Source: a virus. From it: a stretch of 43,395 bases of DNA. Positions 25,887-40,870 of the stretch are shown one piece after another; the first letter of the stretch is position 1, and every line of letters begins with the position of its first letter. The translations under genes and the position numbers were made by a program. The notes under the pieces were generated by a model. That model was not told where the DNA came from, did not search any database, and saw nothing but the letters and a program-made list of their open reading frames with translations. The stretch covers positions 1 through 43,395 of the IMG/VR virus record IMGVR_UViG_3300001920_000011; one strand, given 5' to 3'.

Positions 25887-26573
25887 ATGGACCGCAGCGA
25901 ATTCGGCCTGCGCGAGGTGAAGCTCGCGAAGGACCCCGCCGAAGGCATGAAGTTTTCGGGCTACGGCGCCGTGTTCGGCAACGTCGATTCCTACGGCGAC
26001 GTGATCGCCCCCGGCGCCTTCGCCGAAACGCTGGCCGCGGCGCGCAAATCCGGCAACTGGCCCGCGATGCTCGCCCAGCACGGCGGCTGGGGCATGACGG
26101 GCGAGGATATGAACCCGATCGGCGTGTGGACCGATCTGGCCGAGGACGGCCACGGCTTGAAGGTCGAAGGCGTGCTCGCCGATACGGCGCGCGGGCTCGA
26201 CACCTACAAGCTGCTGAAGATGGACCCGCGCCCGGCGCTCAACGGTCTGTCGATCGGCTACGTCGCCAAGAAATTCACCGCGCGCTCGAAGCCCGACGAG
26301 CCGCGCCGCAAACTCGAAGCCATCGATCTCTACGAAGTCAGCCTCGTCACCTTCCCGGCCAATCCCAAATCGCGGATCCGCCAGGTGAAGTCGGGCGAAG
26401 GGTTGACGCTGAATGACGCGGAGAAAGCCCTGCGCGAGGCCGGGTTCTCCCGCATGGAAGCCAAGGCGATCCTCGCCAAAGGTTTCAAAGCTCTCGGCCT
26501 GCGCGAGGCCGGCGAGGGCGACGACGAAACGGAAGCCGCGCTCCAGCGGCTCCTCTCCACCCTCAAAAGCTGA
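25887..26573 (+). CDS. HK97-type prohead protease
   Basis: A 228-aa S78-family prohead protease that matures the capsid by removing scaffold. Catalytic His65 lies in MLAQHGG and Ser122 in NGLSIGYV; EAIDLYEVSLVTFPANPKSRI holds the conserved end of the protease fold. The C-terminal ~50 residues (NDAEKALREAGFSRMEAKAILAKGFKAL) form the usual helical extension. GAGTAA of the portal is followed by the ATG at 25887. Order portal-protease-capsid is canonical. Confidence 0.95.
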   Translation: MDRSEFGLREVKLAKDPAEGMKFSGYGAVFGNVDSYGDVIAPGAFAETLAAARKSGNWPAMLAQHGGWGMTGEDMNPIGVWTDLAEDGHGLKVEGVLADTARGLDTYKLLKMDPRPALNGLSIGYVAKKFTARSKPDEPRRKLEAIDLYEVSLVTFPANPKSRIRQVKSGEGLTLNDAEKALREAGFSRMEAKAILAKGFKALGLREAGEGDDETEAALQRLLSTLKS

Positions 26574-26587
26574 AGAAAGGAAATCCG

Positions 26588-27946
26588 ATGTTGGATTTCG
26601 AAGAGAAGGATGCCGGCACGCCCGACGTGTCGCAACTGCCGAAGATCATCGGCGATCTCGGCCGCGCGTTCGAGGATTTCAAGTCCAAGAACGAGAAGGA
26701 ACTGCAGGAAATCAAGGCCGGCACGAAGGCCGCTCCCGCCGATCTCACGAAGGTCGAGGAAGCGCTGACCAAACTGCACGCCGCCAAGGACGCGATCGAG
26801 CTGAAGCTCGCGGGCCAGGAAAAGGCGCAAAAGCAGCTCGAAGCGCTGCTGGCGCGCCCCGGTCTCGGCCACAATGGCGGCCCGGCCCTCGAGGATTCCG
26901 AAAAGCAGTTGAAGGCGTTCAATCTGCTGCGCAAGGCCGGCAGCGCGCCGGTCTCGGCCGAAATCTATGCCGACTACCGCAAAAGCTTCGAAACCGTTCT
27001 GCGCAAATCCGACAAAGGGTGGAGCGCCGACGAAGTGAAGACTTTGGCCGTCGGTCTCGATCCCTCGGGTGGCTATTTGGTCCCGGCGGATATGTCCGGC
27101 CGCATCGTCCAGCGCGTGTTCGAGATCTCGCCCATGCGCCAACTGGCCGATATCGTCACCATCGGCGTCGACGTGCTGGAAGGCATCAACGACACCGACG
27201 AGGCCGATGAAGGCGGCTGGGTGTCGGAAATGGGCACGCGCGCCGATACCGATACGCCGGCGATCGGCAAGTGGTCGATCCCGACGCACGAAATCTACGC
27301 CCAGCCCAAGGTCACGCTGAAGATGCTCGAAGACGGCGTCTTCGACGTGGAGGCGTGGCTTAACCGCAAGGTCTCCGATCGCTTCGCGCGCGTCGAGAAC
27401 GCGGCCTTCCTCACCGGCAACGGTGTGGGCAAGCCGCGCGGTCTCACGACCTACGACACGGCCGCGACGGCGGACGGGTCGCGCGCTTGGGGCACGTTCG
27501 AACACGTCGCGACGGCGAACAACGGCGACTTCGCGTCGTCCACGCCGGCGGACATCCTGTTCGACGTGGTCGGTGCGATGAAGGACGCCTATCTCGCCAA
27601 CGCGACCTGGCTCACGCGGCGCGAGGTGATCACCAAGGTCCGCAAGTTCAAGGAATCGACGACCAACGGCTATCTCTGGCAGCCTGGCTTGCAGCAGGGC
27701 AAGCCGCAGACGCTGCTGGGTTTCCCCGTGTCGATCGCCCAGGACATGCCGACCCTGGCGACGGGTTCGCTGTCGATGGCCTTCGGCGACATGAAGGAAG
27801 GCTATCAGGTCGTCGATCGTGCGGGCATCAGCACGCTGCGCGACCCTTACACCGCCAAGGGTTACGTGAAGCTGTTCACGCGTCGCCGCGTGGGCGGCGG
27901 CGCGTTGAACTTCGACGCGGTGAAGTTCGTCAAGTTCGGCTCGTAA
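26588..27946 (+). CDS. HK97-fold major capsid protein
   Basis: A 452-aa HK97-fold capsid precursor. Residues 1-105 are a helical coiled-coil delta/scaffold domain that the protease should remove, ending near PGLGHNGGPALEDSEKQLKAF. The mature part starts after about 110 and contains KTLAVGLDPSGGYLVPADMSGRIVQRVFEISPMRQLADIV, AAFLTGNGVGKPRGL and MPTLATGSLSMAFGDMKEGYQVVDR. The motif GLGHNGGP (92-99) recurs in a fibre protein at 39929. Shine-Dalgarno AAGGAAA precedes the ATG. Confidence 0.96.
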   Translation: MLDFEEKDAGTPDVSQLPKIIGDLGRAFEDFKSKNEKELQEIKAGTKAAPADLTKVEEALTKLHAAKDAIELKLAGQEKAQKQLEALLARPGLGHNGGPALEDSEKQLKAFNLLRKAGSAPVSAEIYADYRKSFETVLRKSDKGWSADEVKTLAVGLDPSGGYLVPADMSGRIVQRVFEISPMRQLADIVTIGVDVLEGINDTDEADEGGWVSEMGTRADTDTPAIGKWSIPTHEIYAQPKVTLKMLEDGVFDVEAWLNRKVSDRFARVENAAFLTGNGVGKPRGLTTYDTAATADGSRAWGTFEHVATANNGDFASSTPADILFDVVGAMKDAYLANATWLTRREVITKVRKFKESTTNGYLWQPGLQQGKPQTLLGFPVSIAQDMPTLATGSLSMAFGDMKEGYQVVDRAGISTLRDPYTAKGYVKLFTRRRVGGGALNFDAVKFVKFGS

Positions 27947-27976
27947 GCGCCGAACCTCCCGAACGGCGATCCACGC

Positions 27977-28010
27977 GAAGGGCCCGGGGAAACTCGGGCC
28001 CTTCATCGTT
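27977..28010 (+). terminator. Terminator after capsid gene
   Basis: Perfect 10-bp stem GAAGGGCCCG (27977-27986) and CGGGCCCTTC (27995-28004) with an 8-base loop, followed by ATCGTTT. It lies in the 90-bp gap after the capsid gene and would reduce transcription into the connector genes, so that more capsid protein than tail protein is made. Confidence 0.8.
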
Positions 28011-28036
28011 TCCACGCGCCAACAGGAGTTTTTCCG

Positions 28037-28459
28037 ATGCGCGATCTCATGAACAACGTGCACCTGAAGCGGGCCATCAGCCCGGTTTCGGTGTCGGACG
28101 ACACGGCCCAGGTTTCGCAGATCATCGACACCCAGGGCTACAACTCGCTGACCTTCGCCATCCTGGCCGGCTCGCTCGCCGATGCCGGCGCCACTTTCAC
28201 GGCGCTGGTCGAGCATGACGACGCGGCCGGCTTCGGCACGGCGGCGGCGGTGTCCGACGACGAGTTGATCGGCACCGAAGCGCTGGCCTCGTTCAATCAG
28301 GGCGATGACAACAAGTGCTTCAAGATCGGCTATGCCGGTACGAAACGCTATGTGCGCCTGACGATCACGCCGGCCGGCAACGCGTCGGCGGCGCTGGTCG
28401 CCGCTGTCGCGATCCTCGGCCACCCGGCCCAGGCGCCGACGTCGAACCCGCCGGCCTAA
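28037..28459 (+). CDS. Probable virion structural protein
   Basis: A 140-aa beta-rich protein (MRDLMNNVHLKRAISPVSVSDDTAQVSQIID ... LTFAILAGSLADAGATFTALVEHDD ... YVRLTITPAGNASAALVAAVAILGHPA). Proteins with this pattern (DTQGYxSLTF, TExLASF, KRYVRLT) occur next to capsid genes of many alphaproteobacterial phages; a head decoration or auxiliary structural role is likely but not established. It follows the terminator after the capsid gene with a CAGGAG Shine-Dalgarno. Confidence 0.8.
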   Translation: MRDLMNNVHLKRAISPVSVSDDTAQVSQIIDTQGYNSLTFAILAGSLADAGATFTALVEHDDAAGFGTAAAVSDDELIGTEALASFNQGDDNKCFKIGYAGTKRYVRLTITPAGNASAALVAAVAILGHPAQAPTSNPPA

Positions 28460-28510
28460 CCGCAACGCGAAGGACAAGGGGCGGGGCTTCGGCCTCGCCC
28501 CGCTATCCCC

Positions 28511-29107
28511 ATGCCGCTGCCCTTCCTCGCCCTCGCCACGCCGCCGGACGAAGAGCCGGTGACGCTGGCCGACGCGAAGATCCATCTGCGCGTCGACGGC
28601 ACGGCCGAGGATACGCTGATCGGCGGTTTGATCGTCGCGGCGCGCCAGGCGGCGGAAGCCCACACCAACCGCGCTTTCGTGGCGCAGACCTGGCTGTGGA
28701 CGCTCGACGATTTCCCCTGCGCGGGGAAATGGCTGGAATTGCCCAAGGCGCCGCTGGCGTCGCTGGAAAAAATCGAAGTGCGCGGCGCTTCCGGCACCTA
28801 TGCCGAAGCCACGCTGGCGGATTTCGACGTGCTCGCCCCCGCCGGGCCTTACGCCCCGCCGGCGACCGTCGGCCCGATGCCGGACAAGGCGTGGCCGTCG
28901 TCCGATTGGGCGGGGGCGGCGCGCGCGCGCTTCCAATTCGTCGCGGGCTATGGCGACGGCGAGTCCGTGCCCGAAGCGATCAAGTCGGCGATCAAGCTGA
29001 TCCTGACCGACCTCTACGAAAACCGCGCCGCCCAAGCCGAACGCGCGCTGACCGAAAACGCCGCGGTCAAGGCGCTGCTTTTCCCGTTCCGCGTGCATTA
29101 TGTCTGA
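28511..29107 (+). CDS. Head-tail connector, gp6/gp8 type
   Basis: A 198-aa adaptor of the HK97 gp6 / phiE125 gp8 type. It opens with LADAKIHLRVDGTAEDTLIGGLIVAARQAAEAHTNRAF, the usual family signature, has the trailing WTLDDFP strand region, and ends with VPEAIKSAIKLILTDLYENR. It joins portal to tail-completion proteins in the neck. Its last bases overlap the next gene (ATG at 29100) by 8 bp. Confidence 0.92.
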   Translation: MPLPFLALATPPDEEPVTLADAKIHLRVDGTAEDTLIGGLIVAARQAAEAHTNRAFVAQTWLWTLDDFPCAGKWLELPKAPLASLEKIEVRGASGTYAEATLADFDVLAPAGPYAPPATVGPMPDKAWPSSDWAGAARARFQFVAGYGDGESVPEAIKSAIKLILTDLYENRAAQAERALTENAAVKALLFPFRVHYV

Positions 29108-29426
29108 ATTGAAAGCGGGCCGTCTCGATCGCCGCGTGACCTTGCGCGCGAAAACGCTGGCCAACGACGCCTCGGGCCAAGCGATCGAAACCTGGGCCGA
29201 TCTCGCCACGGTGTGGGCGGAAAAGCGCGATCTGCGCGGCCGCGAATATCTCGCCGCGCAAGCGGTCAACGCCGAGGTCGAGACGGTTTTCCGCATCCGC
29301 TGGCGGTCGGACGTCACGCCCGCCAACCGCCTGACCTATGACGGCAAGGATTACGACATCGCCGCGATCGCCGAGATCGGCCGGCGCGAAGGCCTCGAGC
29401 TGCGCTGCACCGCGCGGGCGGACTAA
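29100..29426 (+). CDS. Head-tail adaptor (head closure)
   Basis: A 108-aa beta-barrel head-closure protein (SPP1 gp16-like). Signatures: LKAGRLDRRVTLRAKTLANDASGQ, WADLATVWAEKRDLRGREYL and FRIRWRSDVTPANRLTYDGKDYDIAAIAEIG, which are the standard motifs of this family. It sits between the connector and tail-completion proteins as in HK97-like phages. Normal length. Confidence 0.94.
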   Translation: MSELKAGRLDRRVTLRAKTLANDASGQAIETWADLATVWAEKRDLRGREYLAAQAVNAEVETVFRIRWRSDVTPANRLTYDGKDYDIAAIAEIGRREGLELRCTARAD

Positions 29427-29435
29427 GGAAGCAAC

Positions 29436-29951
29436 ATGCCGATCGGCACGCCCAATAGCGGGCATCCCCTCGTCGATTTTCGGATCGACGGCTTGAAGGC
29501 GCTCGACGCCGCGCTGAAGGAACTGCCGCAGGCGATCGCGAAACGCGAATTGACGGGCGCGATGTTCGCGGGAGGTCAGGTTTTGCGCAAAGAGGTTTTG
29601 GCGCGCGCCCCGGATAGCCCGAAAGTTCATAAATGGGGCGATCTGCGCGCGAACATCAAGGTCCGCTACCTCAAGCTTCTTTATGACGGTGCCGTCGCCG
29701 TCGGCGTGACGACGGGCCGGGCGTTCTACGCCAAGTGGCTCGAATATGGCCGGGGGCCGGTGCAGACCGTTCGCGCGGATGTGCTGACGGATCTGAATAA
29801 ATTCTATGGAACGGATGTCGCGGCGCAACCCGCCCGGCCCTTTATGCGGCCAGCGATGGATGCGGGCGCGCCGAGGGCGTTGACGGCGATCGTTGCGCGT
29901 CTGAAGGCCGGGATCGAGCGGCAGGCCAAGCGCCTCGCGGGCAAGAAATGA
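29436..29951 (+). CDS. HK97 gp10-like neck protein
   Basis: A 171-aa protein of the HK97 gp10 family. The sequence LKALDAALKELPQAIAKRELTGAM and FYAKWLEYGRGPVQ match the family helix and the conserved E-Y/F-G segment; the C-terminus (ARPFMRPAMDAGAPRAL) carries the typical P-F-M-R-P-A. It acts at head-tail joining or tail-tube initiation. The next gene overlaps it by 4 bp (ATGA). Confidence 0.92.
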   Translation: MPIGTPNSGHPLVDFRIDGLKALDAALKELPQAIAKRELTGAMFAGGQVLRKEVLARAPDSPKVHKWGDLRANIKVRYLKLLYDGAVAVGVTTGRAFYAKWLEYGRGPVQTVRADVLTDLNKFYGTDVAAQPARPFMRPAMDAGAPRALTAIVARLKAGIERQAKRLAGKK

Positions 29952-30373
29952 GTAACCTGGGTTCTTCCCTGCGCACCGTGCTGGCCGCGAATGCGGGTGT
30001 CGCGGCGCTGGTCGGCGGCACGGGTTCGGCCGCGCGGATCCATCCGCTGGTCGCGCCGCAGAAAGCTGCGCTGCCTTACGTCACCTATTACATCGCGTCG
30101 TCGGTCGAAAAATCCGCGTCGCTCGATGGCTTGGCCGCAGCACTCGAATGGTGCCGCGTGACCTTCGATTGCTGGGCCGAGAAATACGCCGATGCCGCTT
30201 CGCTGGAGAAAGCGATCCGCCTGGCGCTCGACGGCTATGCCGGCACGCCCGCCGGCGGCGTGAAAATCCTCGCCTGCCGCCGGATCGACCGGCGCGAGCT
30301 TTACGAACCCGACGCCAGCCCGAAAGCCCTGTACCGGGCGGGTGCGGACTATCTCGTCAACGCCGAAATCTAG
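29948..30373 (+). CDS. DUF3168 tail-completion protein
   Basis: A 141-aa member of DUF3168. It shows LRTVLAANAGVAALVGG, a YVTYYIASSVEKSASLDG strand and RVTFDCWAEKYADAASLEKAIRLALDGY, which is the pattern of tail-terminator/completion proteins that cap the tail tube. Gene order (after gp10, before tail tube) agrees. Length normal. Confidence 0.93.
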   Translation: MSNLGSSLRTVLAANAGVAALVGGTGSAARIHPLVAPQKAALPYVTYYIASSVEKSASLDGLAAALEWCRVTFDCWAEKYADAASLEKAIRLALDGYAGTPAGGVKILACRRIDRRELYEPDASPKALYRAGADYLVNAEI

Positions 30374-30382
30374 GAGAAGAAC

Positions 30383-31012
30383 ATGGCCTCGAAAGCGATC
30401 AGCGCCCAGAAGACGATCATCCGGGGCGTGCTCGAGAAAACCCTGGCGGTCGAATTCGAAGCGACCGGCAGCCTGATCAAGCGCACGACCGGCTCGTTCG
30501 TGACCGACGGGTTCTTGGTGGGCATGACGCTGACCACGACCGACGGCACCAACGCCAATTGCGGCACGATCACGCTGGTCGAGGCGCTGCAACTCACCGT
30601 CTCGGCGTCGATCACCGACGTCGCCTCCGCGTCGAAAACGCTGACCGCCCACGCCGCGATCGGCGAGGTCAAGTCGTTCTCCGGCCCCGGCGGCCAAGCG
30701 TCGGATATCGACGTGACGTCGCTGGATTCCGACGCGAAGGAATTTCGCCGCGGCCTCGCCGACGAAGGCGAAATCACGCTCGAGGTCAATCTCGACCCGA
30801 CGAACGCGGGCCAGCAATTCTGCCGCATCGCGCGCGCCGAAAACGTCGCGCCGTTCGGCAAGCGCAATTTCGAGATCGTGTTCCCCGACGCGGATACGAC
30901 CACGCTGGAATTCGAGGCCTTCGCGAAGGGGTTCTCGATTTCGGGCGGCGTCGACGACGTGGTGCAGGCCTCGCTGGCGCTGCGCATCACCGGCGCCGTG
31001 ACGTGGTCGTAA
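30383..31012 (+). CDS. Major tail tube protein
   Basis: A 209-aa tail tube protein. The C-terminal half has the tail-tube pattern: EGEITLEVNLDPTN, KRNFEIVFPDADTTTLEFEAFAKGFSISGGVDDVVQASLALRITG. The first 90 residues contain a polar beta-rich segment (GSLIKRTTGSFVTDGF ... TDGTNANCGTITLV) that looks like an inserted domain; the tube part would then start near 95. It precedes the tail chaperones as expected. An AGGAGAAG Shine-Dalgarno precedes the ATG. Confidence 0.9.
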   Translation: MASKAISAQKTIIRGVLEKTLAVEFEATGSLIKRTTGSFVTDGFLVGMTLTTTDGTNANCGTITLVEALQLTVSASITDVASASKTLTAHAAIGEVKSFSGPGGQASDIDVTSLDSDAKEFRRGLADEGEITLEVNLDPTNAGQQFCRIARAENVAPFGKRNFEIVFPDADTTTLEFEAFAKGFSISGGVDDVVQASLALRITGAVTWS

Positions 31013-31013
31013 C

Positions 31014-31373
31014 ATGACCGCGCCGAAGAAAGCCCTCGATCGCGCGGCGATCCTCGACGTGGCGCCCGCGATCGTGCCCTTCGACATGCCGGAATGGGGC
31101 GGGACGGTGCATCTGCGCGCCGTCCCCTTCGCCGAGGCGATGGAGCTGCAATCGGCCTCGGGCGTCGATTACGCGCCGCTGCTGATCGTGGCGTGCGTGG
31201 TCGACGAAGCGGGCGCGCCGATCTTCACCGCCGACGACGTTCCGGCGCTGAAGCGCAAGCCCGTGCGCCAGATCAACCGGCTGATCGCGCGCATCAACGA
31301 ACTGAACGCCCTGGGCGTCGCGGAAGCGGAGAAGATCGCGGGAAACTCCGACGCGAGCCCTGGCGCCAGCTAA
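31014..31373 (+). CDS. Tail assembly chaperone gpG
   Basis: A 119-aa tail chaperone (lambda gpG type). The pattern MPEWGGTVHLRAVPFAEAMELQ ... LLIVACVVDEAGAPIFTADDVPALKRKPVRQINRLIARI matches GTA/siphophage chaperones upstream of tape-measure genes. It ends at 31373, but a slippery heptamer at 31340-31346 allows some ribosomes to shift to -1 and continue to 31693. gpG binds the tape-measure protein while the tail tube forms. It begins 2 bases after the tube gene. Confidence 0.9.
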   Translation: MTAPKKALDRAAILDVAPAIVPFDMPEWGGTVHLRAVPFAEAMELQSASGVDYAPLLIVACVVDEAGAPIFTADDVPALKRKPVRQINRLIARINELNALGVAEAEKIAGNSDASPGAS

Positions 31374-31693
31374 GGCTGCGCCTGGCGCTCGCATTCGGTG
31401 TCTATCCCTCCGATCTCGACCGGACCTTGCCGGCCAAGGATTGGGCGGAGCTGCAAGCGCTCGACCGGCTCGATCCGTTCGGGCCGGAGCGCGGCGATTG
31501 GCGGATGGCGATCCTCGCCAGCCTGATGGTCAATCTCAAACGCGATCCGAAGAAGACGAAGCCGTTCAAACCGATCGACTTCATGCCGTTCCTCGATCCG
31601 GCGTTGCGCAAACGCGTCGAACAGCACGATCTGAAAACCGCGCTGATCGGCGCGCTGAACCCCGTCAAAAAGAAAACGCGAAAGAAAACCTGA
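31014..31693 (+). CDS. gpGT frameshift fusion protein
   Basis: Predicted 226-aa fusion made by a -1 shift at GGGAAAC (31340-31346), read G-GGA-AAC in the gpG frame. The upstream part is 31014-31346 and the downstream part resumes at 31346 with LRREPWRQLRLRLALAFGVYPSDLDRTL, then WAELQALDRLDPFGPERGDWRMAILASL. The downstream frame has no good start of its own, and its W..LRL.LA..G..P pattern matches the T domain of chaperone fusions. The T part should recruit tube subunits. Supported by heptamer phase and the absence of any stop up to 31693. Confidence 0.87.
31340..31346 (+). promoter_or_regulatory. -1 frameshift slippery site
   Basis: GGGAAAC in X-XXY-YYZ register with gpG codons GCG-GGA-AAC. 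It lies 24 bases before the gpG stop TAA (31371-31373). The -1 frame then reads without a stop to 31693. Confidence 0.88.
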
Positions 31694-31696
31694 TCC

Positions 31697-34045
31697 ATGT
31701 CCCAGGACATCGGCGCCCTCGTTCTTCGGCTGGAGGCGCAAACCGCGACGCTTCAGCGCGACATGAACGCCGCGCGCCGCATCGTGTCCGAAAACACGTC
31801 GCAGATGACGCGCAGCATGAATCAGGTGCGCGACATCTCGACCAAAACGGCCCAGGCCTTGGGCTCGATCGGCTTGTCGCTGGGCGTGGGCGCCATGGTC
31901 GCCTACGCCAAATCGGTGATCGATACCGTGGGCGGGCTGGGCGAGCTGGCCGATCAGCTCGGCGTCACGACCGAGCAGCTTCAGGCGCTGCAATACACGG
32001 CGCTGGCCGCCGGCGCCTCGGCCGAAACGCTGGAAACCGGCATCGCGCGTTTGACGCGCTCGATCGGCGAGGCGGGCGAGGGCAACGACGCGCTGATCCG
32101 CCGCTTCCGCGATCTCGGCGTCAGCTTGCTGGACGTCAACGGCAAGCAGCGCGACACCGGCGCCGTGCTCTCGGACGTCGCCAAGGGCATCGCGGGCATC
32201 GAAGACCCGGCCAAGCGCGCCGCCGCCGTGGTCGATTTCTTCGGCAAGTCGGGGCAGAAATTGCTGCCGCTGCTGATGGAGATCGCCGATGTCGGTCTCG
32301 ACGGCATCGCGCGCAAGGCCCGCGAAGCCGGGGCGGTGATCGACAGCGAAGCGATCAAACGCTTCGACGAATTGTCCGACAAGGCCGCCCAGCTCGGCAA
32401 AGTCGGCTTCGTCGCCGTCGCCGACGGCCTTGCCAAGATCGTCGACTACATCAACAATCTCGACAAGACCAAGGCCGCGTTGCTGGCCGGGTTGCTGGCG
32501 GCCGGGGCGGGGGCCCGCGTCGCGGGCGTGCCGGGCGCCGTCGTCGCGGGCTCGGCCGTCACCGGCGCGATGCTCGCCCCCGGCCCGAAAACCTATACGG
32601 CGCAGGACGAGCAGCGCCTGATCGAGGAACTGAAGCAAGAGCAAATGGGCCTCGGTCGCCCGATGGTCGAGATGGATATAAATCGCCGTCTCGCCGAAGT
32701 GCGCCGCTATCTCAATGCCCAGGGCATCGGCCCGGCGGCGCCCAATTCGCCCTATCGCGATCTGCCGACGATGCCGGATGCGGCGGTCGCGCCGGCCGCC
32801 CCGGCCGCGTCGCCGGGCACGCCCAATCTGCCGGTCTCGACGCGCGAATTGACCAATCAAGCCGCGGGCGACGCGCTGGTCCGAAGCCTGCAATTGCAGA
32901 AGGATTCCTACGGCCAGATCGAAAGCGCCGCGTTGCGCCTGCGCCTGGAACGCGAGCGCGACATCGCGGTGATCGATGGCCAGATCAAGGATCTGGGGCC
33001 GAAATACACCAAGGCGCAGATCGACGCGGCCGTGGCGATCCAGCTTCAGGTCGAAGCGCTGGTCGATTTGCGCCGCGCCCAGCTCGACGCAGGCGCCACG
33101 GCCGCCGCCCAAGCCGCCGAGCGCGAGAAGGAACGGGCGGCGTCGGCCGAGTTCCGCAACCAGCAGGTTCTGATCGCGCAGAAGGTCGAAGAACAGATCG
33201 CCCAGACGCGCGCGCAGATCCCGCTGGTCGAGCAATCGACGATCGTCTGGAACAAGCACACGCGGCAATTCGAACTGGTCAACGAACAGCTCGATCTCTA
33301 CCTCGCCAAGCAGCGTTTGATGGCGGCCAACCCCGGCATGAAGCCGGACGACGTCGATCGTTTGGCGAAGGACGAGGTCGACGCGGCCAAGCGCCTGAAA
33401 GCGGCGACCGACGAACAAACCGCCGCCGTGCAGCGCCAGCAGGCGACCTACGATTTCCTCGCCAATATGGGCGAGCGCGCCTTCGACCGCATCGGCGACG
33501 CGATGGTCGATATGGCGATCGAGGGCAAGGACGCGCTGGGAAGCCTGACCAATGTCGCGCGCGCCGTCGTCGCCAGCATCTATGCCGATTTCATGAAACT
33601 GGCGATCGCCAACCCGATCAAGAACGCGATCTTCGGCGGCAATTCCCCCACGCTGTCGGACGGCGGCGGCATCTTCAAAGGGTTGTTCGGCGGTTCCCAG
33701 GCCGCCGGCGGCCCGACCGACGCCGCGACCGGCATGACCGGCACCACGGGGTTGAGCTTCGGCGGCCCGCGCGCCAAAGGCGGGCGCGTGTCGCCCGGCA
33801 ATTGGTACATGGTCGGCGAGGAAGGGCCCGAGCCCTTCGTGCCCGATGTGGCCGGGCGCATCTTCCCGCACGATGCCAGCGGCGGCGGGCGCAGCGGCGA
33901 TACGTTCTATATCGACGCCAAGGGCGCCGACAAAGACGGGTTGCGCCGCGTCGAAGAAATGATCCGTCAGGTCAACGGCTCGGTCGAAAAACGCGCCGTC
34001 ATGGCCGTCACCGCCGCGCGGCAACGGGGCGCGATCCCGGCATGA
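31697..34045 (+). CDS. Tail tape measure protein
   Basis: A 782-aa tape-measure protein that sets tail length. The N-terminus (IGALVLRLEAQTATLQRDMNAARRIV) is a coiled-coil; about 65-130 has the hydrophobic DNA-ejection-type segment (GSIGLSLGVGAMVAYAKSV) and LGVTTEQLQALQYTALAAG; about 250-300 is another hydrophobic stretch. The C-terminus has AKGGRVSPGNWYMVGEEGPEPFVP, the lambda gpH/tail-tip-interaction signature. At roughly 0.15 nm per residue it would predict a tail near 115-120 nm. Overlaps next gene by ATGA. Confidence 0.92.
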   Translation: MSQDIGALVLRLEAQTATLQRDMNAARRIVSENTSQMTRSMNQVRDISTKTAQALGSIGLSLGVGAMVAYAKSVIDTVGGLGELADQLGVTTEQLQALQYTALAAGASAETLETGIARLTRSIGEAGEGNDALIRRFRDLGVSLLDVNGKQRDTGAVLSDVAKGIAGIEDPAKRAAAVVDFFGKSGQKLLPLLMEIADVGLDGIARKAREAGAVIDSEAIKRFDELSDKAAQLGKVGFVAVADGLAKIVDYINNLDKTKAALLAGLLAAGAGARVAGVPGAVVAGSAVTGAMLAPGPKTYTAQDEQRLIEELKQEQMGLGRPMVEMDINRRLAEVRRYLNAQGIGPAAPNSPYRDLPTMPDAAVAPAAPAASPGTPNLPVSTRELTNQAAGDALVRSLQLQKDSYGQIESAALRLRLERERDIAVIDGQIKDLGPKYTKAQIDAAVAIQLQVEALVDLRRAQLDAGATAAAQAAEREKERAASAEFRNQQVLIAQKVEEQIAQTRAQIPLVEQSTIVWNKHTRQFELVNEQLDLYLAKQRLMAANPGMKPDDVDRLAKDEVDAAKRLKAATDEQTAAVQRQQATYDFLANMGERAFDRIGDAMVDMAIEGKDALGSLTNVARAVVASIYADFMKLAIANPIKNAIFGGNSPTLSDGGGIFKGLFGGSQAAGGPTDAATGMTGTTGLSFGGPRAKGGRVSPGNWYMVGEEGPEPFVPDVAGRIFPHDASGGGRSGDTFYIDAKGADKDGLRRVEEMIRQVNGSVEKRAVMAVTAARQRGAIPA

Positions 34046-34668
34046 GCGTGACCTATCCCCTCGCGCATCCGGCGACGCCGGTCTTCCGCGCGCTGAATTG
34101 GCGCGCGATGGACGTTATCGCCATCACGCGCAGCCCCTTCACGCTGCGCGAGGAAACCCAAGCCTTCGACGGCGATGCCTGGGGCTGCGATGTCGATCTG
34201 CCGCCGATGGACCGGATCGAAGCCGATGCCTGGATAGCCTGGGCTTTGGCGTTGCGCGGCCGGCTCGGCACGTTCCATCTGGGCGATCCCACGGCCAAAA
34301 CGCCGAAGGGAATCGCGACCGGCACGCCCTTGGTCGACGGCACGCAAAGCGCCGCCGCGCGCACGCTGGCGACGAAAGGCTGGACGACGAGCACGACCGG
34401 CATTCTGAAGGCCGGCGATTTCATCGAATTGGGATCGGGCGCCACGCGCCGCCTGCACCGCGTGCTGACCGATGCGAATTCCGACGGGGCGGGCAAGGCC
34501 ACGCTCGATATCTGGCCCGCCTTGCGGCTTGAAGGCGCCACCAACAACGCCGCGATCGCCACGGCGAATTGCAAGGGCACGTTCCGGCTCGCCACCAACG
34601 CGCGCGAATGGTCGGTCGGCGAAGCCAAGATCTACGGTTTGTCTTTCTCGGCGGTCGAGGCGCTGTGA
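34042..34668 (+). CDS. Probable distal tail protein
   Basis: A 208-aa beta-rich protein right after the tape measure, where distal-tail (Dit-like, DUF2460-like) proteins sit. It has PVFRALNWRAMDVIAITRSPFTLREETQAFDGDAWGCDVDLP and RGRLGTFHLGDPT, then a variable middle domain of about 70 residues and a closing FRLATNAREWSVGEAKIYGLSFSAVEA. The tail-tip role is from position and fold pattern; I have no firm family name. Starts by ATGA overlap. Confidence 0.8.
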   Translation: MSVTYPLAHPATPVFRALNWRAMDVIAITRSPFTLREETQAFDGDAWGCDVDLPPMDRIEADAWIAWALALRGRLGTFHLGDPTAKTPKGIATGTPLVDGTQSAAARTLATKGWTTSTTGILKAGDFIELGSGATRRLHRVLTDANSDGAGKATLDIWPALRLEGATNNAAIATANCKGTFRLATNAREWSVGEAKIYGLSFSAVEAL

Positions 34669-34692
34669 TGTTGCTCGCGAACTCCAATCTTA

Positions 34693-34749
34693 CGCGCGCC
34701 GCGAGGGTTGGTGTGGCGGCTCGCGGCGCGCGGAAAAAAAACCGCGCGC
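34693..34749 (+). promoter_or_regulatory. Two mutually exclusive hairpins
   Basis: Hairpin A pairs 34693-34705 with 34720-34732 (13 perfect bp). Hairpin B pairs 34726-34733 with 34742-34749 (8 perfect bp) around an A8 loop. Both need 34726-34732, so they cannot form together. They lie in the 95-bp gap before the tail gene at 34764. Hairpin B ends 14 bases before that ATG and contains much of the G-rich leader. A 30-codon reading frame at 34668-34760 crosses the region. Confidence 0.5.
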
Positions 34750-34763
34750 GGGGCGGATAAAAA

Positions 34764-35324
34764 ATGCCCAGGAATCTCACGACCGAGATGGCCGCGCAAA
34801 TCGCCGCGCGCGTCAAATATCCGGTCATGCTGGTCGAAATCGAAACCGCCGGGGCGCCTGTGCGCGCGTGGTCGGGCATCGGCGATCTGGCTTGGGACGG
34901 CAAGACCTTCACCGGGGTGGGCACCTTCGGCGGCGTGCAAACGGCCGACGAAACGCTCGATCTGCGCGCGTCGGGCGATGTCTACACGCTGTCGGGTATC
35001 GACCCCGCCTTGCTGTCGGCGGCGATCGGCGATTTGCGCCAGAACTTGCCCTGCCGGCGCTGGCTGGGTTTCCTCGACGCCGCCGGCGCTTTGATCGCCG
35101 ATCCGATCCTGATGTTCGAGGGCACGGCGGCCGTGCCCACGACCGACGACGACGCGGACACGCTGACCATCGCGATCTCGTCCGAAAACCTGCTCAACAC
35201 GCTGAAGCGCCCGCGCGAAACCCGCTACACGCCCGAAGATCAAGCCACGCGATCGGCGGGCGACAAGGGCTTCGACTACGTCGCCGCGTTGCAGGACCGC
35301 GTCATCGCCTGGGGGCGTTCGTGA
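34764..35324 (+). CDS. Tail-tip protein, DUF2163-like position
   Basis: A 186-aa protein with MLVEIETAGAPVRAWSGIGDLAWDGKTFTGVGTFGGVQTADETLDLRASG and IDPALLSAAIGDLRQNLPCRRWLGFLD, the pattern of baseplate/tail-hub proteins that precede NlpC/P60-type peptidases in GTA-like tails. A C-terminal LTIAISSENLLNTLKRPRETRYTPEDQ follows. Most of the sequence is beta-rich. Likely part of the tail hub. The Shine-Dalgarno is weak; see the hairpins upstream. GTG start of the next gene overlaps its stop by 4 bp. Confidence 0.82.
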   Translation: MPRNLTTEMAAQIAARVKYPVMLVEIETAGAPVRAWSGIGDLAWDGKTFTGVGTFGGVQTADETLDLRASGDVYTLSGIDPALLSAAIGDLRQNLPCRRWLGFLDAAGALIADPILMFEGTAAVPTTDDDADTLTIAISSENLLNTLKRPRETRYTPEDQATRSAGDKGFDYVAALQDRVIAWGRS

Positions 35325-35758
35325 CCCGCGCATCCGATTGGCCCGAAATCCTGGCGCGCCATATCGCCGCCGCGCGGGCGCGCGTTTTCGAATGGGGCGT
35401 GCATGATTGCTGCGTCTTCGCCTGCGACGGCGTGCGCGCGATGACCGGCGTCGATCCGATGGCGGTCTTGCGCGGCGCGTATGACGATGCCGTCTCGGCC
35501 GCGCTGGCGCTGAAAATCCATGCCGGCGGCGGCTTGCCCGAAGCGGCCGATGCGCTGGCGCGCGATGCCGGGCTGGAAGCGATCGCGCCCGGCTTCGCCC
35601 AGCGCGGCGACGTGCTGCTGGCCGATATCCTGTCTTTGCACGGCAAGCGCGCCTGGGCGCTGGGCCTGGTCGCCCCCGACGGGCGCGGCGCCTTCGCCGC
35701 CCCGGTCGGTATCGCCTTCCTGCCGATCCGCGCGGCCGCGCGCGCCTGGCGGATCTGA
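35321..35758 (+). CDS. DUF6950/NlpC-P60-like tail protein
   Basis: A 145-aa protein. The segment FEWGVHDCCVFACDGVRAMTG has the W-G-x-x-D-C-x-x-F-A motif of small NlpC/P60-like tail proteins, with Cys as the likely nucleophile; the His partner in SLHGKRAWALGLV is plausible. Such proteins cut peptidoglycan during infection or form the tail hub. It starts at GTG 35321 overlapping the previous stop. Position and size match the GTA/siphophage gene between hub and host-specificity genes. Confidence 0.88.
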   Translation: MTRASDWPEILARHIAAARARVFEWGVHDCCVFACDGVRAMTGVDPMAVLRGAYDDAVSAALALKIHAGGGLPEAADALARDAGLEAIAPGFAQRGDVLLADILSLHGKRAWALGLVAPDGRGAFAAPVGIAFLPIRAAARAWRI

Positions 35759-35761
35759 CCC

Positions 35762-38700
35762 ATGCGCCGCCTGTCCCTGTTGCTCGCCACGACCGCGCTG
35801 ATCGCGATTCCCGAACCGGCTCCGGCGGCGCCGGTCGTCGCGGCCGTGGGGGCGGCGGCGCTGGGCGGGTTGCAGATCGGCGGCACGCTGGCCACGGGCT
35901 TGACCTTCGGCTTCTCGTGGACCGCCGCCGCCGTCGCGGGCGTGGGCTCGCTGGCCCTGGGCTTCGTCACCCAGGCGCTGACGCCCAAACCCAAGGCGGC
36001 CGAGGCGCCGTCGCTGCCCGATATCTCGCGCGACCGCACGCTGGCGATCCGCCAGCCGATCGTCACCGGCAAATTGCATGTCGGCCGCTTGCGCCTGTCG
36101 GGCGCGCAAACCCTGGTCGAATCCACGGGGGCGAATAACGGCAAGCTGCATCTGCTGATCACGCTGTCGGTCCAACCGCTCGGCCGGCTCGACGAGCTTT
36201 GGATCAACGACGAACAAGTGCCGCTCGACTGGGAATTCGGCGCCGGGATCGGCGGCAACGCCACGGGCAAATACGCCGGCAACGTCAAAGCATGGTTCGG
36301 GCGCGGCACGACCGACGGCGATTCCGCCCTCAACGCCGCGTTGACCGATGCGCTCGGCGCGACCTGGACCGAAGACCACAAGCAGGACGGCTGCGGCAAA
36401 CTCTACGTCCAGCTCGACTGGAACGAATCGCTGTTCGGCGGCGGCACGCCCAACGTGTCGTGCGTCGCGCGCGCCGCCGATCTGCACGACCCGCGCGACG
36501 ATTCGACCGGCTGGACCGACAATTGGGCGCTCGCCGTCGCCTATTATTTGACGCTCGCGCAAAATCTCGGCGGCTTCGGCGCCGCCTGGGCCGAAATCGA
36601 CGACGACGCCTTGATCGCCGCGGCCAATGCCAGCGACGAAATGGTCGCGGTCGCCGATAAATCCGTCACCTTCACCGCCGATGCGGCGGCCGATACGTTG
36701 ACGCTCGCCGACGGCACGGCGCGCTTGCGCACCGGCATGCGCGTGCGCCTGACCACGACCGGGACCTTGCCCGGCGGGTTGGCGACCGGCACCGATTACT
36801 ATGTGTGCGAAACCGGCACGCTGGTGCTGGGCTTGTCGACCACGCTCGCCAATGCCCGCGCGCGCACGATCATCGCGCTTTCCGACGCGGGGTCCGGCAC
36901 GCATACGATCACGGCGAAGGCCGAGCCGCGCTACACCGCCAACGGCACGATCGACACCGCCGACGATCCCGAAACCATCCTCGGCAAATTGCTGTCGGGC
37001 GGGGCGGGCAAGCTGGTGCGCGTGCAGGGCAAGTGGGAAATCAAGGCCGGCGTGTGGGCGGCCCCCACGCGCGCGGCATTGACCATGGACGACATGGTCC
37101 AGGGTTTCTCGGTCGCGTGGCGGCGCGAACCGCGCGAGGCGTTCAACGGGGTGAAGGGCACCTTCGTCGATCCCGACAGCGCATGGCAGCCGACCGACTT
37201 CCCGGCCGTCGCGGTCGCCGCCTATTTGACCGAGGATCAGAATATCCGCGCCTGGCGCGCCAACGCCGAATTGCCCTTCACCTTGTCGCCCAGCATGGCC
37301 CAGCGCATCGCGCGGATCGAGCTGGAGCGCAACCGCCGCCAAGTCTCGACCAAATGGGGCTGCAAATTGACGGCGCTGGATATCGCGGCGGGCGATGTCG
37401 TGCCGCTCACCTATCCGCGCTACGGCTGGTCGGACAAGGCGTTCGAGGTCGGGTCGTTCAAACTGACGACGATCGAGGCCGAGGGCGCCACGGCCGCGAT
37501 GGTCGAATTGGGCTTGGCCGAAATCGACGAAAACGTGTTCGCCTGGAACCCGGCCGACGAAATCGATCTGCCGCCGTCCCCGCGCACCAATCTGCCCAGC
37601 CCCGGCACGGTCGCTCCGCCCACTTCGCTGACGCTGTCGTCGGGTTCGGGCGAGTTGGACTCGCGCATCGACGGCACGATCTTCTCGCGCCTGCGCCTGG
37701 ATTGGGTATCGCCCGCCGACGCCTTCGTCACCGGCGGCGGCTTGATCGAAATCCAGTTCAAGAAATCGGCCGACGCGGAGTGGCAGCCCAGCGAATTCGC
37801 GCGCGGCGACGCGAATTTCTATCGCATCCTCGACGTCGCCGACGGTGTGGCCTACGACGTGCGCATCCGGTCGCGCAATTATTTGGGCGCCGTCTCGCCC
37901 GATTGGGTCGTCAAGACCGGCCATGTCGTGCAAGGCAAAAGCGAGAAACCGCCGCGCGTGATCCGCGCGCGGTTGAGCCAGGGCCGCATCTGGGGCGAGC
38001 TCGAATCCGCGCTGCCGCTCGACTTCGCCGGGTTCCGCGTCAAATACAATCGCGGCGCCGATCGCAATTTCGCGACCGCGCGCGCGGCCCACGGCGATAC
38101 GGTCGTGGCGTTGCCGTGGGATGTTTCGCCCGATCTCGCGGGCCGCGTCACGTTCTTCGTCGTCGGCGTCGATACGTCGGGCAACGAATCCGCGTCGCCC
38201 GCCGTGATCGTCGTCGATTTGGGCGATCGTGCCATCGCCAACGTGATCGAGACGGTCGATTTCAAGGCGGCGGGTTTCCCCGGCACGATCGCCGGCGGTT
38301 CGGTTTCGGGCGGCGATCTGGTCGCCGACGACGACGGCGGGCTTTATCTGCCCAACCCCAACGCGCTCTATCTGCCCGACGGCGCGGCCGATTATCTGCC
38401 GGTCGCCTACGAAGAATTGACCTACGAATTCGCCTATGTGCCCGGGCCGGACGCGATCCCCTCGACGTTGACGCTCGATCTCGACGCGGCCGGCGAAGGG
38501 ATCGCCATCGAGTTCGACCCCGACGATCAAGCGCAGTATCTGCCCGACGGTTTGGGCGCCTATTTGCCGGGGTCGGGCGGTTATCTCGCCGACGGGGCGG
38601 GCTGGCGCCCATGGCCGGGTGCCGTCGAAACCGCGCGCCAGCTTTACCGGTTCCGGATCACGGCCCAAGCCTCGGCGACGCGCGGCCGGATCTCCGCCTG

Positions 38701-38962
38701 CGCGATCGTGATGGACGTGCCCGACGCGGAAGAGGAAATCGCCGATCTGACGATTCCGTCGGGCGGTGTGCGCTTGCCGCTCGCCAAGTCCTACCGGTCC
38801 ATTCGAACCGTGATCGGCACGTTCCAAGACGACGGCGGCACCGCCGACAAGCTGCTGGTGCTCGACAAGGACGCGGCGCTGGGGCCGCTCGTCCAGGCTT
38901 TCGCCGGCGGGTCGCCGGTATCGGCGCTGGCCGATTTCCGAATCAAAGGGGTGAAACGATGA
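35762..38962 (+). CDS. gpJ-like tail tip / host specificity protein
   Basis: A 1066-aa central tail-tip protein. Residues 1-22 look like a signal peptide (MRRLSLLLATTALIAIPEPAPA), unusual for a virion protein; 24-75 is hydrophobic. About 95-290 has the gpJ-like hub pattern (TGKLHVGRLRLSGAQTLVE, FGRGTTDGDSALNAAL). Residues about 300-385 appear to be an inserted beta domain (FTADAAADTLTLADG, LRTGMRVRLTTTGTLPGGL, LSDAGSGTHTITA). A fibronectin-III-like domain spans about 635-720. The C-terminal ~100 residues repeat YLPDG/YLPN-type units. It should bind the host receptor directly or carry the fibres. Confidence 0.9.
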   Translation: MRRLSLLLATTALIAIPEPAPAAPVVAAVGAAALGGLQIGGTLATGLTFGFSWTAAAVAGVGSLALGFVTQALTPKPKAAEAPSLPDISRDRTLAIRQPIVTGKLHVGRLRLSGAQTLVESTGANNGKLHLLITLSVQPLGRLDELWINDEQVPLDWEFGAGIGGNATGKYAGNVKAWFGRGTTDGDSALNAALTDALGATWTEDHKQDGCGKLYVQLDWNESLFGGGTPNVSCVARAADLHDPRDDSTGWTDNWALAVAYYLTLAQNLGGFGAAWAEIDDDALIAAANASDEMVAVADKSVTFTADAAADTLTLADGTARLRTGMRVRLTTTGTLPGGLATGTDYYVCETGTLVLGLSTTLANARARTIIALSDAGSGTHTITAKAEPRYTANGTIDTADDPETILGKLLSGGAGKLVRVQGKWEIKAGVWAAPTRAALTMDDMVQGFSVAWRREPREAFNGVKGTFVDPDSAWQPTDFPAVAVAAYLTEDQNIRAWRANAELPFTLSPSMAQRIARIELERNRRQVSTKWGCKLTALDIAAGDVVPLTYPRYGWSDKAFEVGSFKLTTIEAEGATAAMVELGLAEIDENVFAWNPADEIDLPPSPRTNLPSPGTVAPPTSLTLSSGSGELDSRIDGTIFSRLRLDWVSPADAFVTGGGLIEIQFKKSADAEWQPSEFARGDANFYRILDVADGVAYDVRIRSRNYLGAVSPDWVVKTGHVVQGKSEKPPRVIRARLSQGRIWGELESALPLDFAGFRVKYNRGADRNFATARAAHGDTVVALPWDVSPDLAGRVTFFVVGVDTSGNESASPAVIVVDLGDRAIANVIETVDFKAAGFPGTIAGGSVSGGDLVADDDGGLYLPNPNALYLPDGAADYLPVAYEELTYEFAYVPGPDAIPSTLTLDLDAAGEGIAIEFDPDDQAQYLPDGLGAYLPGSGGYLADGAGWRPWPGAVETARQLYRFRITAQASATRGRISACAIVMDVPDAEEEIADLTIPSGGVRLPLAKSYRSIRTVIGTFQDDGGTADKLLVLDKDAALGPLVQAFAGGSPVSALADFRIKGVKR

Positions 38963-39927
38963 CCGCACTTCCCGCCGCCGGGTATTTTTCCGATCCGGCC
39001 CGCACCAACGCCGAAGCGAAAACGGCGCAGGACGACATGCTGGCTTTCGTGCGCCAGATGCTGGGCGGCCAAGCGTCGACCGAGCTGACGATCGCGTCGG
39101 GCGCGGCCGTCCCGACGCGCGGCATGCACACGATCGACACCGAAGCGGATGCGGCTTCCGACGACCTGACCAATCTCGACACGACGAATCTGCCCGACGG
39201 GTCGTGGCTGCTGGTCGGTTGCGCCGACGCGGCGCGCGTGGTCACGGTCAAACACAACGCCGGCGGGGCCGGGCAGATCGCGCTGACCGGGGCGGCCGAC
39301 GCGGCGCTCGACGCCACGTCGAAATACATCCTGCTGCGCCGGTCCGGCGCGAACTGGGCGGAGATCGGGCGCTTCGGCTTCATCGTCGAATCGGAGTTGC
39401 TCAAACAAGGCCGCCACACGATTTGGGTGCCGGCCGTCGCGATGATTCCGCGCACGACCAACGGCGCGGCGTCGGGCTCGGTCGAAACGACGACCAACAA
39501 GGTCATGCTGAAGACCTTGGATTTCGACGCGTCGACGATCGAATACGCGCAATTCGCGATCCGCATGCCCAAGGGCTGGGACGAAGGAACGGTCGCGGCC
39601 GTGTTCGTGTGGTCGCACGCGGCGACGACGACGAATTTTAAAGTGTCCTGGGGCTTGCAGGCGGTCGCGATTTCCGACGATGACGCGCTCGACGCCGCCT
39701 TCGGCACGGCGCAATACGCCAACGACACCGGCGGCACGACGAACGACGCCTATGCCTCGCCCGAAACGTCGGCGATCACGATCGCGGGCACGCCGGCGGC
39801 CGAGGATCTCGTGATCTTCCAAGTGCTGCGCAAGGCCGACGACGGCACCAACGACACGCTGGCGGTCGATGCGCGCCTGCATGGCGTGACGCTCTACTAC
39901 ACCGTCAACGCGCCGACGGACGCCTAA
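38959..39927 (+). CDS. Tail appendage protein
   Basis: A 322-aa protein with a N-terminal 140-residue linker-type domain (MTALPAAGYFSDPARTNAEAKTAQDDMLAFVRQML ... SKYILLRRSGANWAEIGRFGF) and a C-terminal beta domain (WVPAVAMIPRTTNGAASGSVETTTNKVMLKTLDFDAS ... YAQFAIRMPKGWDEGTVAAVFVWSH ... DARLHGVTLYYTVNA). The C-terminal pattern is widespread in phage tail or structural proteins of alphaproteobacterial and marine phages. Likely part of the tail fibre/tip. Starts by ATGA overlap with the gpJ-like gene. Confidence 0.82.
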   Translation: MTALPAAGYFSDPARTNAEAKTAQDDMLAFVRQMLGGQASTELTIASGAAVPTRGMHTIDTEADAASDDLTNLDTTNLPDGSWLLVGCADAARVVTVKHNAGGAGQIALTGAADAALDATSKYILLRRSGANWAEIGRFGFIVESELLKQGRHTIWVPAVAMIPRTTNGAASGSVETTTNKVMLKTLDFDASTIEYAQFAIRMPKGWDEGTVAAVFVWSHAATTTNFKVSWGLQAVAISDDDALDAAFGTAQYANDTGGTTNDAYASPETSAITIAGTPAAEDLVIFQVLRKADDGTNDTLAVDARLHGVTLYYTVNAPTDA

Positions 39928-39928
39928 G

Positions 39929-40870
39929 ATGACCCGCCCTTACGACAAGCCGGGGCTGGGCCATAACGGCGGCCCGCCGCTCGACGATATCGATCCGGCC
40001 GAAGCGCGGATCGTGTCGAAGTTCCGTTGTTCGCTGCTGATGACGACGGCGCTGGTCGGCTTCATGGCCGGTGCGGCGCTCGCGGCGCCGCCCAGCGTCG
40101 ATTTTCTGCTGGGGGCCGGCGGCGGCGGCGGCGGTTACAACGGCGGCGGCGGCGGCGGGGCGGGCGGCGTCAAATCCGGCACGCAAGCCATCGTGCCGGG
40201 CGACACCTACACGGTCACGATCCCGGCCGGCGGCAACGGCTCGACCAGCGGATCGGTCAAGGGCGGCAAGGGCAGCAACGCGGCCTTTGGCCCGAACTCG
40301 GCCGAGGGCGGCGGCGGCGGCGGCTCGGGCTCTAACGTCAACGGCGATAATGGCGGCTCGGGCGGCGGTGCGGCGTGGAACGGCAATCCCGGCGCCAAGG
40401 GCCTTGGCACGTCCGGCGAAGGCAACGACGGCGGCGTCAACCATTTCGGCAACGCGATGGCCGGCGGTGGCGGCGGCAAAAACCAAGTGGGGGCCAATGG
40501 CGCCACGACCGCCGGCAAAGGCGGCGACGGCGTCACGTCAAGCCTGTCGGGCGCGTCCGAAGCCTATGGCGCGGGCGGCGGCGGCGGCGGCAACACGGCG
40601 TCGTCGGGTGGCGATGGTGGGTCCAGCAATCTCGGCGGCAAGGGTGGTTCGGCGGCCGGCGCCGGTTCGAACGCGACGGCGAGCAAGGCCAGCGGCGGCG
40701 GCGGCGGCGGCTCCCTCGCCAATGGCGGCAACGGCTCGGGCGGCTTCCTGATCGTCAGCTATCCCGACACCTACGCCTTGCCGGTTCTGACGACCGGGTC
40801 GCCGACTTACGTCCATTCCGGCGGCAATCATATTTTCATCTTCCTGGGCTCCGGCTCGATCAAGTGGTGA
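39929..40870 (+). CDS. Glycine-rich tail adhesin
   Basis: A 313-aa protein. Residues 9-16 are GLGHNGGP, 33-52 are a hydrophobic, AxA-ending segment like a signal peptide (CSLLMTTALVGFMAGAALA), and about 60-270 are Gly-rich, with multiple runs of Gly separated by Asn/Ser/Ala (more than ten GGG to GGGGGG tracts). The end (FLIVSYPDTYALPVLTTGSPTYVHSGGNHIFIFLGSGSIKW) is beta-like. Polyglycine sandwich tips are known receptor-binding adhesins (phage S16 gp38-type), so receptor binding is a reasonable inference. The repeat structure could also promote strain-to-strain variation. Confidence 0.8.
   Translation: MTRPYDKPGLGHNGGPPLDDIDPAEARIVSKFRCSLLMTTALVGFMAGAALAAPPSVDFLLGAGGGGGGYNGGGGGGAGGVKSGTQAIVPGDTYTVTIPAGGNGSTSGSVKGGKGSNAAFGPNSAEGGGGGGSGSNVNGDNGGSGGGAAWNGNPGAKGLGTSGEGNDGGVNHFGNAMAGGGGGKNQVGANGATTAGKGGDGVTSSLSGASEAYGAGGGGGGNTASSGGDGGSSNLGGKGGSAAGAGSNATASKASGGGGGGSLANGGNGSGGFLIVSYPDTYALPVLTTGSPTYVHSGGNHIFIFLGSGSIKW

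Follow-up and report, generated by a model that had tools for sequence, protein, structure and literature searches.

A GHN peptide on unrelated proteins of alphaproteobacterial phages and their hosts as a candidate docking tag

Short peptides carried on the tails or linkers of many unrelated proteins are familiar from the clamp-binding peptide, the C-terminal tail of SSB and the SspB-binding tags, hub-binding motifs in which a fixed core lies in a flexible setting amid variable surroundings. Similarly, the encapsulin cargo-loading peptides and the T4 capsid-targeting sequences are found at protein termini and direct unrelated proteins to a single destination. The peptide described here, denoted the GHN tag (for example, GIGHNGGPPLDD), resembles both groups in these respects. 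Its sequence, however, is unrelated to those of the clamp-binding peptide, the SSB tail and the SspB tags, its partner is putative and, unlike these motifs, it is restricted to Alphaproteobacteria and their phages; whereas the encapsulin and T4 peptides act on capsid shells, the GHN tag is borne by host proteins as well, and by the shell, the portal and the terminase. We consider it probable (about 0.58) that the tag is a lineage-restricted short linear motif that docks, in trans, to a putative conserved alphaproteobacterial factor.

Two copies of the peptide are encoded in the window, the 43,395-nucleotide stretch of IMG/VR virus record IMGVR_UViG_3300001920_000011 analyzed here, which contains genes for a terminase, a portal protein, an S78 prohead protease and an integrase, with msrA at the left end, and which we read as a provirus plus some host DNA. 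Copy 1 (PGLGHNGGPALED; positions 26858-26896, plus strand) spans residues 91-103 of the 452-aa HK97-type major capsid precursor (26588..27946, plus strand; PF05065, E = 5.6e-74; phrog_10, major head protein), and copy 2 (PGLGHNGGPPLDD; 39950-39988, plus strand) spans residues 8-20 of a 313-aa Gly-rich protein, adhesin- or fibre-like (39929..40870, plus strand; PF21722 Gly_rich_2, E = 7.4e-13; phrog_2295). The preliminary description of this DNA had pointed out that the two proteins share PGLGHNGGP-x-L-(E/D)-D, and both copies indeed lie at the sites it gave, on the plus strand, in proteins whose naming is borne out by the matches to PF05065 Phage_capsid and PF21722; its residue range for the Gly-rich protein was exact, but that for the capsid (91-102) fell one residue short of its own pattern. 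The GHNGGP codons of the two copies differ by 4 synonymous changes. The common 9-mer is the longest identical peptide between any two genes of the window, and in 300 within-protein shuffles of the window a shared 9-mer never arose (0/300) and a shared 8-mer arose in 10, which, taken by itself, is modest evidence against chance.

In the Gly-rich protein, the tag is located in the N-terminal tail, before a hydrophobic segment; no relatives of this protein were confirmed among the viral contigs searched. The tagged tail is followed by a signal-peptide-like stretch (window 39929-40015; KFRCSLLMTTALVGFMAGAALAAPPS), and the gene has an in-frame GTG at 40013; use of two starts, yielding a tagged and a secreted form, is conceivable.

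The capsid precursor is a secure member of PF05065 (249.5 bits against a curated cut-off of 24.2) and has an N-terminal helical, delta-like domain. In the predicted structure, helices 50-88 and 100-114 flank a linker (residues 84-101; pLDDT <50) that is predicted to be disordered and contains copy 1. The motif itself occupies residues 92-99, AVGLDPSGG is found at 154, and the conserved capsid domain, starting with GGY(L/V)P, begins ~50 residues downstream of the motif. The nearest homologue has RPGLG--GGS at the tag site, GHN is absent from the other aligned homologues, and some motif phages encode relatives of this capsid with the motif sitting in another gene. The preliminary description had held that lack of conservation in homologues would count against it, and locally this is the case: the window capsid family lacks a conserved motif, and the capsid copy is therefore probably a recent gain in a linker.

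The same description had suggested a protease site. Cleavage by the phage prohead protease, or self-cleavage at Asn-Gly, would suit the position of the motif between the N-terminal and capsid domains, which the window capsid shares with a protease-capsid fusion (L083, phrog_617), as well as the Peptidase_S78 gene (25887-26573) adjoining that of the capsid precursor. However, the distance to the conserved capsid domain speaks against such processing, as does the presence of the motif equally on host proteins and on enzymes that undergo no maturation step, among the carriers being exonuclease, IscU-like proteins and methylases; furthermore, N, Q, S and R are all accepted at position +4, which is ill-suited to Asn-Gly chemistry. 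A processing site is thus highly improbable.

Across the collections searched, the core of the motif is G-H-N, with a hydrophobic residue or G as the usual residue before it and with G, N, S, Q or R after it, then G or P, and then often P and acidic residues. With reversed patterns of equal composition as controls, the degenerate G-hydrophobic-GHNGGP pattern was found in at least 118 IMG/VR stretches, compared to 16 for the reversed pattern in the whole collection, and IGHNNPP in at least 120, compared to 3. Hence the peptide is in excess of what Gly-rich composition would yield, contrary to the other possibility that the preliminary description had considered damaging. Among the ORFs of the loci fetched for the motif, GG came next after GHN in 146 of 166 instances, and the reversed NHG occurred 23 times. 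Around the motif, P was enriched in the flanks (1.85x and 1.64x) and D/E downstream (1.6x), with F and W depleted upstream. Short-peptide tblastn against isolated phages returned few records, given the E-value limit. String searches of open-access papers yielded no relevant description of the GHN tag; with respect to the papers so searched, this would be an undescribed docking tag. In the PDB, the motif profile best matched the PGIGHN loop of uS12, in which six residues are identical to the motif and those that follow are unrelated to it; with E = 0.35 the match is not significant, and mimicry of uS12 was set aside as chance.

The conservation is at the protein level. Most viral matches are in frame within long ORFs, and 240 matches comprise 186 distinct 23-mers. 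A DNA- or RNA-level signal translated by happenstance could draw on the first Gly codon after Asn, which is GGC in 200 of the 240, but all other synonymous positions vary widely, and GHNGGP and GHNNPP replace each other despite their different DNA; judged from this codon variation, such a signal appears largely refuted, and we assign it a nearly negligible likelihood. Recent copying of a DNA cassette was likewise rejected, considering the diversity of the 23-mers and the lack of relatedness between carriers by blastp, and the shared DNA beyond the motif that a transposable linker cassette would leave was not found.

The translated matches in ORFs of at least 60 aa fall into 71 sequence-unrelated clusters, of which 28 have two or more members; some of the singletons will be due to chance, mainly those in short ORFs from other bacteria. 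Together with the reversed controls, this places the same core in unrelated proteins beyond chance, as is typical of short linear motifs. The carriers, named by PHROG and Pfam, include the terminase large subunit, with the motif in an internal loop (phrog_9) or at the N-terminus (phrog_979); residue 326 in the terminase of Roseobacter phage RDJL Phi 2 is a third site, so that the terminase acquired the motif at three different places. The motif is also found in several unrelated families of portal proteins (C-terminal or internal), in capsids of phrog_10, phrog_264 and phrog_617, at the N-terminus of an exonuclease, at the extreme C-terminus of a NifU/IscU-like protein, and in C5-methylases, a late sigma factor, an integrase and a helicase. 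Thus, the sites used in these unrelated proteins include both termini as well as linkers. A single copy is present in 46 of the 50 motif phages and the carrier varies, and therefore no single phage process appears to need the motif.

Within phage families, the motif comes, goes and varies. One TerL family has either GIGHNGGPSLWEPQPGPQSL or QIGHNNPPDLWEPQPGPQSL at the same N-terminal site, the exonuclease family includes GHNQPP and GHNNPP as well as IGDNGGP, IGGNKPP and IGSNGAPP, and phage GapR proteins carry GHNSG or GHNGGP ahead of the same domain; GHNGGP, GHNNPP, GHNSG and GHNQPP are interchangeable at one site of one family. In phrog_9 TerL, GHN is kept in 52 of 75 homologues, the others having decayed or shortened loops, and the tree contains at least 8 supported changes in motif state; given its repeated loss, the motif must be dispensable in places. 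Where the TerL loop after ITTAG lacks GHN (L480-L553), it reads GHGGGP, GLGGGP, GRDGGP or GCEGGxFP, and such loops show a graded decay, amounting to a natural mutation series of the motif.

GHN is present in 7 of 30 phage GapR proteins not selected for the motif versus 0 of 25 chromosomal ones (p = 0.012), and chromosomal GapR, with no GHN in its 25 N-termini, was dismissed as the natural bearer; a composite GapR query and an alignment (A2) containing hand-typed padding letters served solely as search bait. For the IscU-like phage proteins that bear a C-terminal IGHNNPP tag, relatives in a cyanophage and in an Acinetobacter-phage record stop short of it, at the point at which the tagged versions run on into IGHNNPP. 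Judging from these sequences, the tag on phage GapR and IscU would be an added address rather than a part of the enzyme.

The preliminary description mentioned comparable strings in further proteins of alphaproteobacterial phages, and the many carriers found here, with identified hosts that are nearly all Alphaproteobacteria, agree with that statement. Motif phages with named hosts infect Roseobacter, Ruegeria, Rhizobium, Sinorhizobium, Agrobacterium, Bradyrhizobium, Acetobacter and Caulobacter. Among the 80 genome matches listed, 67 are alphaproteobacterial by record title, 2 are named 'Proteobacteria' and 11 are from elsewhere, many of these 11 being in short or unlikely ORFs and two, from Caballeronia, being the same protein. 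In evenly drawn whole genomes, the strict form is rare, occurring in 7 of 289 Alphaproteobacteria (2 control matches) and 1 of 229 Gammaproteobacteria (1 control match), counts that include one centre genome per class chosen for having the motif; without the centre genomes, the numbers are 6/288 versus 0/228 (p = 0.04). With a wider pattern, Rhodobacterales gave 54 matches versus 27 controls, and Gammaproteobacteria fell below the control. The marine contigs bearing IscU with IGHNNPP have as their nearest records cyanophages, Methylophilales phage Melnitz and Pelagibacter phage HTVC008M. The 'Microcystis' phages Mae-JY35, Mwe-JY07, JY08 and JY25 (L558) carry exonuclease or GapR genes otherwise found in alphaproteobacterial phages, and their host assignment may be wrong.

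Conservation of the motif is best tested in a chromosomal family of Rhodobacterales, the one order in which the profile search was performed, with members in 44 of 81 genomes. A second profile, free of the motif, recovered all 44 copies, and GHN is present in 44/44, followed by GGP (15), SGR (10), NGP (9), QGP (4), RGP or others, within variable flanks. Thus, the core is more constrained than the flanks, another mark of short linear motifs, in this family but not in that of the window capsid. In the AlphaFold model of a family member, the body has a mean pLDDT of 88 and the motif-bearing tail is below 50; hence in both carriers modelled, this protein and the window capsid, the motif lies in a segment predicted to be disordered, and packing of the motif in cis on its own domain was rejected for the host protein. 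A motif kept and yet modelled outside the fold is what would be expected for binding in trans. The suggestion in the preliminary description that the peptide serves recognition and is not a fold is therefore upheld: its sites are termini and linkers in unrelated carriers, both models predict disorder for it, and only GHN is conserved. Of the functions given there as examples, a chaperone or localization signal may apply.

This invariant core also bears on whether a partner is needed at all. A passive, turn-forming G/P-rich spacer, favored for solubility or flexibility, would be in keeping with the P-rich flanks and the sites in linkers, with the different Gly-rich linker that the capsid relative has at the tag site, and with the frequent loss in TerL. 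It would nevertheless leave without explanation the His-Asn pair that is invariant (44/44) in a disordered tail, the strong lineage bias, and the rarity of the reversed sequence, whose composition is the same, and we find it unlikely. The conserved His and Asn, and the fact that several carriers act on DNA, could also suggest that the motif itself binds a small ligand, a metal or nucleic acid; but there is a single His, the flanks are acidic rather than basic, and restriction to certain hosts is hard to square with a universal ligand, all of which renders this option very unlikely.

In the three loci in which the neighbors were read, the gene of the chromosomal family directly follows one whose product starts with MFTGIVTDIGE, which we read as ribE, encoding riboflavin synthase. 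The ribE-linked protein (L157, L206, L212; alignment A1) has ~190 aa, and no Pfam or NCBIfam family was found for the members tested. The model comprises a three-helix part and a Rossmann-like domain weakly similar to HAD phosphatases (2pr7, GmhB), and the protein is possibly, as judged from this model, a relative of a riboflavin-pathway phosphatase. Alphaproteobacterial proteins of 74-105 aa with a GHN tail (L135, L173, L178 and L183) share with this family a helical part, W..CW..AH..AWKTPP.EI..RR..RAE.LGM.Y; the one tested, L173, has no NCBIfam name.

Under the docking hypothesis, disordered tails and linkers would expose GHN, and a putative conserved cytoplasmic factor of Alphaproteobacteria would bind it in trans through a protein-binding pocket. 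Phage proteins would acquire and drop it through small linker changes, and those bearing it would be recruited to the putative host factor. The existence of such a partner, its nature as a host factor and a benefit from binding, such as help in assembly, localization or stability, are what we infer. The excess of the motif in head genes may reflect help in assembly or localization; because enzymes also carry the motif, we claim no virion role. In a more specific scenario, Alphaproteobacteria would possess an undescribed GHN receptor that the ribE-linked host protein uses, and phages of many kinds would time and again have placed the tag on proteins unrelated to one another (terminase, portal, capsid, nuclease, methylase, and their versions of GapR and IscU) so as to take advantage of it; this is plausible, with odds we put somewhat short of even. 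If the peptide is a docking tag, there would be a host hub with which the phages of an entire bacterial class interact by means of proteins unrelated in structure, the peptide would be a ready bait for finding that hub, many 'hypothetical' phage proteins could be better annotated, and the extra tail on phage copies of GapR and IscU would be accounted for.

The window encodes a C5-methylase of its own (17421-19538). In place of the GIGHNGGP loop of other methylases (L144 and L120), it reads GFPDSYRIDEGPEGKRLSK, without the motif, and it contains a long region of repeated 'EPLxTVTA'-like units.
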